Assembly: GCA_938009235.1 (NCBI GenBank)
Contig: CALLIK010000002.1
Coordinates: 124,001-188,000, forward strand
Reading direction: 5' to 3'
DNA length: 64,000 bases
Origin: an uncultured Caulobacterales bacterium
GTDB lineage: Bacteria; Pseudomonadota; Alphaproteobacteria; Caulobacterales; Maricaulaceae
A program made the position numbers and the translations under genes. Below are positions 10,466-13,316 of this stretch, in pieces; position 1 is the stretch's first letter, and each line of letters starts with the position of its first letter. The notes under the pieces were generated by a model that did not search any database, was not told the origin of the DNA, and worked only from the letters and a program-made list of their open reading frames with translations.

Positions 10466-11374
10466 ATGCCTCTTCGCGAATTTTCTGTGTTGATGATGAT
10501 CTGCACCATTTGGGGGCTGCATTTCGTCGTGATGAAATTCACGATTTTCCAAATGGGTATTCCTCCGCTTTTCTATGCCGCGCTGCGTGTGTCATTATTG
10601 GCTATTATCCTGCTTCCCTTTTTACGTTGGCATAAAGGGCAAATGCGAGCTGTCCTACTGGGCGGCGTCGGCTTTGGCGCATTAAATTACGCTTTCATGT
10701 TTCCCGCCATGCAGCTGACGACAGCCAGTGCCGCCGCTGTCGCCATTGAGCTTTACATGCCTTTCTCCATCATCCTCTCTGTCTTAATTTTGGGGGAAAA
10801 AATCGGACCTTGGCGGACGGCTGGCGCGGCATTAGCTTTCGTTGGTGTTGTTCTCATTGGGCTCGGTGCGCCTGCGGAAACCGCAGGCAAAGGCTTTGCT
10901 CTTGGTATCGGTTTGATGGCGTGCAGCGCGATGGCAGAAGCCGTTGGCGCAATCGCTGTGAAGTCGGTTAAAAGCGTTACCTCCATTCAACTCCTCGGGT
11001 GGTTCGGCTTAGTTGGCTCTGTTGTTCTATGGCCCCTGAGCCTGCTTTTGGAAGACAATCAAATGCGCGCGTTTGGGCCCGAGACCCGCGTCAATTTTGG
11101 ATTGGCGTTGATGTATTCGGTGCTGCTCGTCAGCCTTGTCGCGCATGGATCATATTATTGGCTACTACAACGCTTACCCATCCACACAGTCGCGCCTTCA
11201 GGGTTAATGACGACCTTAATCGGCGTTATTGGGGGTGTGATAATTTTAGGCGAAACGCCGACACCTATTATTTGGCTAGGCGCTTTCGTCACGGTTGTAG
11301 GCATTAGCATCATTCTTTGGCGCAACCGCCGAGAGGCCAATAAGGGACGTCAAAAAGACGCTAAGCGCACGTAA
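10466..11374 (+). CDS. EamA/DMT family transporter
   Basis: 302 residues with about ten hydrophobic segments in two EamA repeats: the first ends around VFVGVVLIGLG-type residues at ~130, the second around FVTVVGISIILW at ~280. The drug/metabolite superfamily exports amino acids or metabolites; the substrate cannot be assigned. ATG 10466 places the first membrane helix (MMICTIWGLHFVVMKF) at the normal position. A LexA box begins 7 bases after its stop and belongs to the next, very short gene. Confidence 0.9.
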   Translation: MPLREFSVLMMICTIWGLHFVVMKFTIFQMGIPPLFYAALRVSLLAIILLPFLRWHKGQMRAVLLGGVGFGALNYAFMFPAMQLTTASAAAVAIELYMPFSIILSVLILGEKIGPWRTAGAALAFVGVVLIGLGAPAETAGKGFALGIGLMACSAMAEAVGAIAVKSVKSVTSIQLLGWFGLVGSVVLWPLSLLLEDNQMRAFGPETRVNFGLALMYSVLLVSLVAHGSYYWLLQRLPIHTVAPSGLMTTLIGVIGGVIILGETPTPIIWLGAFVTVVGISIILWRNRREANKGRQKDAKRT

Positions 11375-11381
11375 AAGTATT

Positions 11382-11396
11382 GTTCAGCAAAAGTTC
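11382..11396 (+). promoter_or_regulatory. LexA (SOS) box GTTC-N7-GTTC
   Basis: The sequence GTTC AGCAAAA GTTC is an exact match to the direct-repeat LexA operator established for alphaproteobacteria. It lies 7 bases after the EamA stop and 64 bases before a 28-codon membrane micro-ORF, in an intergenic stretch, so it is correctly placed to repress that micro-ORF. An 8-base exact match can occur by chance, so binding is inferred. Confidence 0.65.
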
Positions 11397-11460
11397 ATAG
11401 AACAGCCACTATCTCGTCATTATTGTGGGCTTATATAGCTTCATCAGAAAGATATATAAA

Positions 11461-11547
11461 ATGACACAAAATTTGAAATTTGAAAAAATGGTTCTAATCA
11501 GCTCCGTGCTGATCACCCTGTTTCTCTTCATTGCACAGGGATTTTGA
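11461..11547 (+). CDS. 28-residue single-TM peptide, candidate SOS division inhibitor (SidA-like)
   Basis: Too short for the ORF track. The reading frame encodes 28 residues: a polar N-terminus (MTQNLKFEKM), one membrane helix (VLISSVLITLFLFIA) and a two-residue QGF tail. A LexA box lies 64 bases upstream. In Caulobacter the SOS-induced inhibitor SidA is a 29-residue, single-pass inner-membrane peptide that blocks the divisome through FtsW/FtsN. Size, topology and regulation match; I cannot verify sequence homology. The ribosome site is weak (AAAGA about 11 bases upstream). If not SidA-like, it is another small membrane protein, or chance. Confidence 0.55.
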   Translation: MTQNLKFEKMVLISSVLITLFLFIAQGF

Positions 11548-11684
11548 ACCTACACTTTGGTTCCACGGCTTAAAGCCATCCCCAGTCTGACTGAAATTTA
11601 AGCCTATTCTATACCTACGCCGCCTTGGCCCTGCCGCCGAACCGTCCTAAGCTTTTCCCTTAACGTCGAAAAGAGCGGCCAAAC

Positions 11685-13316
11685 TTGCACCCTACAGGAC
11701 CCAGAAACGCGAGTTTTTCGCCTTATCATGATGATGATCGTCTCTCCGACTTTTTGGATGACGATGCTCTACGGGTAACGAGTAATGCTGCCGTCGTATT
11801 CGCAATCCATGTCGGGATCATTTTTGCAATGTCGGGCAATTTTATTGTCCCTGACCTAAAACCTCCGCCGCCGCCCAAAGCTGTCACTGTAGAAATCATA
11901 ACATATGACCCGACACCTGAGCCTGAGCCTGAGCCTGAGCCAGTTGTTGTTGAGATCAAACCTACAGCGCCGCCACCTGCCGCCGTGCCAGCCCCTCGTC
12001 CGCAGCCTGAGCCGCAACCCATAGTTGAGCCTAAACCAACACCGCCGCCCCCGCCGCCTATTGTAGAGCCAGAACCTGAACCTGTGTTTACGCCACCACC
12101 ACCACCGCCAGAAATTCTATTTCAGCCAGAACCAGAACCGCTCGACCCCGTCGTGCCAGTGCCTCCCCCAGAGCCTATACCCTTGCCTGAACCTCTGCCT
12201 GAACCGGAGGCTCAGCCTATCATCGAATTTTTTGAGCCAATTCCAGAACCGCAGCCGATCCCGGAACCCATCATAGAATTTTATGAACCTTTACCCGAAC
12301 CTATAATTGAACCCGACCTGATTCCAGAGCCGATCATTGAGTTTTACGACCCCATCGTAGAACCAGAGCTAGACCTAGAGCCGCTTACTGTGCTGCCCGA
12401 ACTTCCGCCAACATCAGGCGTGATTGAGGCTGACCCTTTACCTGAAATTATAGAGCCAGAGCTTTTACCGCCCGAAATCATTATCGAGTTCGAACCCATT
12501 GTTGTGCTTGAACCTACCATTTTACCAGAGCCTGAACCGATTACGCCAGAGCCCAAAGCTGAGCCTGAAGTCATTCCGCTCGCACCGACGGTATTGGCCT
12601 CACCAGAAGCGCCAGAATCACGTGAAGAAGAAATCCGCGCCGTTCCACAAGAGCAAAGCGACCCATTCCTAGATCTTTTGAAGAAAGACATTGATTCGAC
12701 TCTTGATGACCCGATTGTCACGCCTCCGCGCGGCGGCGGCAATCAAGGTGCTGTCAACCTAGGTGGAACTCAGCCGCCGAGCGGTGGAACGCGAATAGGA
12801 CGTACAAACCCCGGGGCAGGAGGCTGGTCATTAGGGCCGCAAACCACGGGGCCTAGCGAAGCCTATAAAGGCATCAATCTAGACATTCGCTGCCGTGAAG
12901 AAGGCCGTACGCATGAGGATTGTCCGCAATATGTTCCAAAAAATAGAGGCCGCAGCACTGATGGTAGCGAGAGTTTTGAAGGCATGGCAGGTACAGGCAG
13001 CGATCGAGGCGACGGAATTTCTAGCTCGAGAACACTCCCATCACGTAGCAGCCTTGGACTTCCGATTGGAGACAACTCAATCAATAGCGGCGGCCCATCC
13101 ACAAGTGCAATGGATTTCCAAGACCAAAATTTCGACCGTGAATTTGTCAATAAAACACTCAACTTAGGCCCTAAGCCGAAAGGCCTCTTAGATGTTTTGG
13201 GCCCTAATGACGCGCCCCCGCCCGTCAATGACTGGACCTTAAACAACACACCTGCTGAAACGGAAGAGACAAATGATGACTCTCGGGATTGGGTTTTAGA
13301 TAAATTACCTGAGTAA
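11685..13316 (+). CDS. Proline/glutamate-rich TonB-like inner-membrane protein
   Basis: 543 residues from TTG 11685; a stop codon lies eight codons upstream in frame, and the next in-frame ATG would cut into the membrane helix. Residues 1-33 are cytosolic and acidic, ~34-55 form one membrane helix ([17 protein letters not shown]), and ~60-310 are a Pro/Glu spacer built on PEP units and a recurring PIIEFxxPxPEP block. The remainder is Gly/Ser-rich with a conserved-looking [18 protein letters not shown] segment. This is TonB topology with an unusually long spacer, but I see no standard TonB C-terminal domain at the end. It could be a TonB/TolA-like energy or scaffold protein spanning the periplasm. 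Confidence 0.75.

Follow-up and report, generated by a model that had tools for sequence, protein, structure and literature searches.

A new single-helix membrane micropeptide of the Litorimonas group, with a conserved array of 11-bp repeats and probable regulation by ChvI

The 64,000-nucleotide stretch of an uncultured Caulobacterales genome analysed here (the window) contains a very short open frame between a transporter gene and a gene for a TonB-like protein, closely preceded by an exact GTTC-N7-GTTC motif (Table 1). This arrangement raises the question of whether the frame is a gene at all and, if so, what controls it and what its product might do. The original prediction had read the motif as a LexA box and the frame as a possible SOS division inhibitor analogous to SidA of Caulobacter, a LexA-induced inner-membrane protein of 29 residues that interacts with FtsW (PMC4211646). 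The host belongs to genus g1 of this analysis, a Litorimonas-group member of Caulobacterales.

Table 1. Coordinates of the features discussed, as positions in the window.
Feature	Position	Strand	Basis or remark
EamA-family (DMT) transporter gene, constant upstream neighbour	10466..11374	+	Pfam PF00892, E 6.9e-29; synteny
GTTC-N7-GTTC 'LexA box' GTTCAGCAAAAGTTC	11382..11396	+	spans array units 1 and 2
Direct-repeat array TTCAGCAAAAG TTCATAGAACA GCCACTATCTC GTCATTATTGT	11383..11426	+	predicted OmpR-family operator, ChvI type favoured
-10-like TATATA, presumed peptide promoter	11432..11437	+	putative; read from sequence
28-residue single-helix membrane micropeptide gene	11461..11547, stop included	+	frame kept in nine congeners, one copy each; purifying selection
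TonB-like protein gene, constant downstream neighbour	11685..13316	+	ORF start assigned mechanically; the real one may lie elsewhere

The open frame itself proved to be as described in the original prediction, with 28 codons, a polar head and a single membrane helix. It translates to MTQNLKFEKMVLISSVLITLFLFIAQGF (28 codons, then stop), in which residues 1-9 make up the polar head and residues 10-26 the lone hydrophobic segment (mean Kyte-Doolittle value 2.39). When 137 family genomes were searched, the peptide was recovered from nine other members of the genus, at one copy per genome and always between the EamA transporter gene and the TonB-like gene. Identity to the window peptide was 39-68% among these relatives, and residues M1, T2, F7, E8, L12 and F21 were invariant in their alignment (A1). 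Across the 10 congeneric sequences, pN was lower than pS in 45 of 45 pairs (mean pS 0.74, mean pN 0.23), pN/pS against the window copy ranged from 0.19 to 0.54, and third codon positions varied at 27 of the 28 codons, compared with 12 of 28 for second positions. Because of this conservation among congeners, the pN/pS values and the contrast between third and second positions, the frame, in contrast to the box, lies well outside chance expectation; it is a real small gene under purifying selection. A 28-residue membrane peptide gene of this kind is probably overlooked by gene finders. In an order-wide search, matches to the A1 profile of at least 59 bits were restricted to the genus, and all other matches, outside the congeners, were at chance level. 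No Pfam or NCBIfam model matched the peptide, Rfam likewise returned nothing, and a consensus scan detected no terminator, nor did it show a standard sigma-70 promoter upstream of the peptide.

Tracing the EamA gene through other genera revealed more diverged single-helix peptides at the same position in Hellea, Robiginitomaculum and Algimonas. The Hellea counterpart reads MRYYKFEKNVLVLTFFLTALTALAASL, those of Robiginitomaculum have 59-61 residues with a VEK/YEK motif ahead of the helix, and the Algimonas peptide includes TFERSVFWTSIALAALVLVTA. Their position, helix and FEK-like motif point to homology across genera, strongly for Hellea and more weakly for Robiginitomaculum and Algimonas. In genera g5 and g3, the TonB-like gene follows closely after the EamA stop, and no peptide was found between the two.

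The GTTC-N7-GTTC motif is likewise present between the genes as had been predicted, and it is the sole exact match in the window. Shuffled sequences contain 2.24 such matches on average, so the box alone is not above chance; the probability of a match inside this intergenic gap of roughly 86 bp is about 0.002. Over the whole genome the motif occurs 87 times and its reversed control 91 times. The expected conservation in relatives was borne out for the frame in nine congeners and failed for the box, which 9 of 9 lack up to 250 bp from the peptide, also when one mismatch is tolerated, whereas the lexA loci of the genus keep their own box in 13 of 14 cases. The absence from congeners set against this lexA control, together with the lack of a genome-wide excess, led us to reject the box as a LexA operator, and the proposed LexA control is not supported. 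The GTTC...GTTC is a look-alike, made of the first two units of a conserved array that fits a different regulator class.

An SOS-induced inhibitor of the SidA type would be repressed by LexA through the box and, after DNA damage, would bind FtsW or FtsN and block septation. The exact box 64 bp ahead of the ATG in the window would be consistent with this, as would the length of 28 residues against 29 and the one membrane helix shared with SidA of Caulobacter crescentus, a member of the same order (PMC4211646). However, the box is lost among the congeners, shows no excess in the genome, coincides with two array units and carries a spacer, AGCAAAA, unlike the TA...T form seen at the lexA boxes, and we regard this explanation as very improbable. 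The likeness to SidA is one of size and predicted topology only, and membership in the SidA/SOS group is not supported.

Direct repeats with a period of about 11 bp are a signature of OmpR/PhoB-family regulators. The array upstream of the peptide consists of 44 bp in four 11-bp units of the form [G/T/A][T/C]C-N8, and it is common to ten species of the Litorimonas group, gap-free and colinear (in L. cladophorae, GTCACAGAGAG TTCATAAGACT GTCATTTTCTC GCCATTGTTAG). When scored with a matrix built from the nine congener arrays, the window being left out, the window array reached 28.3 bits and ranked first among 127,914 positions, with a runner-up of 5.9. In most congeners, the final EamA codons run into units 1 and 2, whose conservation there could be partly coding; in the window and in one congener (L010) the two units are clear of that gene, and the phase is still kept. 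The -10-like sequence (GATAAG/TATATA) follows the array after 4-6 nt, with GATAAG or GATATA in relatives replacing TATATA at an equal distance, a spacing that would be expected for an activator site taking the place of a -35 element. The same array architecture was also found in Hellea, Robiginitomaculum and Algimonas. In two diverged congeners, L053 (G048) and L054 (G051), a single-helix small frame is in place and no clear array precedes it; regulation there may have been lost or changed.

The best candidate for the activator is ChvI of the ChvG-ChvI envelope-stress pathway. In the distant genera the peptide and array persist while the letters shift to GCC-N8-(A/G)CC-N8-GCC: the pattern in Hellea is exactly or nearly GCC-N8-ACC-N8-GCC-N8-GCC, and in Robiginitomaculum it is A(C/T)C-N8-GCC-N8-GCC. 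Repeats of the GCC-N8-GCC type are clear in Hellea, Robiginitomaculum and Algimonas, similar to those before chvI; in the group to which the window belongs, drift has turned them into TTC/GTC units. The consensus of Sinorhizobium ChvI, as quoted in PMC9731502, is N-GCC-N8-GCC. Points against ChvI are the two diverged congeners with no clear array and the different motif assigned to Caulobacter ChvI, TTGC-N3-GCAA.

The gene hprK was looked for in 17 family genomes as a marker for the chvGI operon; 16 of them gave no match, and chvI was therefore located by its OmpR-type DNA-binding domain instead. A chvI-like gene was found in 28 of 30 genomes searched; in the host genome it is L222 (G000:C13), with a kinase-like gene after it, and we take its product to be ChvI-like from its VDDDENILTSVS start. 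Its promoter carries the units GTCACAGCATT GCCTTATTCTG GTCATGCCCGC GTCTAACTGCC. Units of the G[TC]C-N8-G[TC]C form are broadly conserved before chvI among the relatives read, and none occur upstream of two other response regulators (four loci). The phased G[TC]C-N8 repeats at chvI promoters suggest autoregulation of chvI. Under a matrix of chvI-promoter units, the peptide arrays gave empirical p-values of at most 5.6e-4 in all groups tested, most of them at most 1.6e-5, which serve only as guides because the array phase and matrix units were picked by eye and the species are related. From this likeness between arrays, transcription of the peptide under ChvI is predicted as the probable case, with appreciable room for doubt.

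The regulator first favoured was PhoB, which would act on the array and induce a Pho-regulon micropeptide upon phosphate starvation. The pst promoters of the genus carry phased TGTCA units, a phoB-like gene is present in the host genome (L219), tandem 11-bp units stand immediately ahead of a -10-like sequence as in the Pho regulon, and the PhoB unit matrix fits the window array better than the ChvI matrix does (p 7.8e-6 vs 5.2e-4, again as guides), which leaves room for a different regulator or a shared site. However, Pho-box likeness does not extend across the clade: the window's group fits, but the Hellea arrays, made of GCC/ACC units, do not fit the PhoB matrix (p 0.03-0.12, with the same reservation), even though Hellea pst promoters keep their TGTCA units. 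The PhoB sites at the pst promoters of the genus are TGTCACAAAAC repeats, a form kept in Hellea and Robiginitomaculum, and the peptide arrays lack the A-rich spacers of Pho boxes. PhoB was demoted because of the Hellea misfit; it stands second to ChvI among the candidates and is unlikely to be the regulator. The phosphate operon L097 (G000:C7:405000-410500) has a porin-like gene first and tandem Pho boxes (TGTCACAAAAC units) ahead of it, a layout repeated in several congeners. Control by a different member of the OmpR family, such as CenR or an unnamed regulator, would be consistent with the eight OmpR-type DNA-binding domains (Pfam) in the host genome and with the TCA-N8-TCA repeats of the Litorimonas arrays, which on the opposite strand read as the CenR motif TGA-N8-TGA (PMC9275681), at the same 11-bp period. 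The TCA repeats are nevertheless missing from the Hellea arrays, and there are no such repeats before two other response-regulator genes, and we consider this possibility more doubtful still than PhoB.

The constant downstream neighbour offers a different explanation for the peptide. The TonB-like protein combines a single helix at its N-terminus with a long region rich in Pro and Glu, had no Pfam or NCBIfam match, and keeps a conserved FSPYHDxD N-terminus downstream of the peptide. Since the peptide directly precedes this gene in every genome that has the peptide, it might be a leader peptide, or a by-product of the promoter region, with no membrane function of its own. However, its amino-acid sequence is under purifying selection, genera g5 and g3 carry the TonB-like gene without it, and neither an Rfam match nor a terminator-like site was found. 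Furthermore, the TonB-like gene has promoter-like sequence of its own after the peptide (CTTGGC at 11624 and TAAGCT at 11648, conserved in relatives), which implies that the peptide is probably not merely its leader; we judge the leader explanation to be quite improbable. At 11587-11602, after the peptide and ahead of the TonB-like gene, lies a conserved CTGACTGAAATTTAAG. A genus lacking the peptide (L123) keeps a related CTGTCGGAAATTTAAT, and CTGACTGAAATTTAAG is therefore likely an operator of the TonB-like gene.

Our preferred reading, to which we assign a probability of about 0.6, is that an OmpR-family regulator bound to the array, with ChvI the best candidate, switches on a membrane-tuning micropeptide. 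We infer that the response regulator would most likely bind the array of four 11-bp repeats immediately before the -10 region and, as an activator rather than a repressor, turn transcription on. The gene would then yield an inner-membrane micropeptide of 28 residues. Its short polar head, bearing the FEK motif, is predicted to lie in the cytoplasm, and its one helix would probably dock on a larger inner-membrane protein and tune it. Candidate targets are the sensor kinase, in a feedback role, a machine of the envelope or of cell division, and the TonB-like protein encoded next to the peptide.

Stress-induced single-helix peptides, MgrB and the like, tune larger membrane proteins, and by analogy with them the peptide probably does the same. 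The resemblance to MgrB-like micropeptides lies in the very short length, the one helix and the apparent control by a stress response regulator; we regard the peptide as probably a stress-linked membrane micropeptide. Another likeness is with DidA of Caulobacter crescentus, from the same order, which is also a small membrane protein with a single helix and is not controlled by LexA. What is reported for DidA, induction by DNA damage via DriD and binding to FtsN (PMC4211646), sets it apart. In the boldest reading, the peptide would be induced by envelope stress independently of LexA and would stop or adjust septal or envelope synthesis through helix-to-helix binding; we hold this specific role to be improbable.

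The micropeptide is new, and the similarity of its array to those at chvI promoters indicates that it is probably ChvI-regulated. It adds a family of small membrane proteins without a Pfam or NCBIfam model, carrying a conserved regulatory array. The locus also serves as a warning that OmpR-family arrays can mimic the alphaproteobacterial LexA box, since GTTC-N7-GTTC shares their 11-bp period. Since members of the family are present in Litorimonas cladophorae KCTC 23968, Hellea balneolensis DSM 19091, Robiginitomaculum antarcticum DSM 21748 and Algimonas arctica KCTC 32513, all of them named strains, it is open to testing. If the role in septal or envelope synthesis were true, the peptide would represent a further division checkpoint of Caulobacterales, wired to ChvGI and not to DNA damage.
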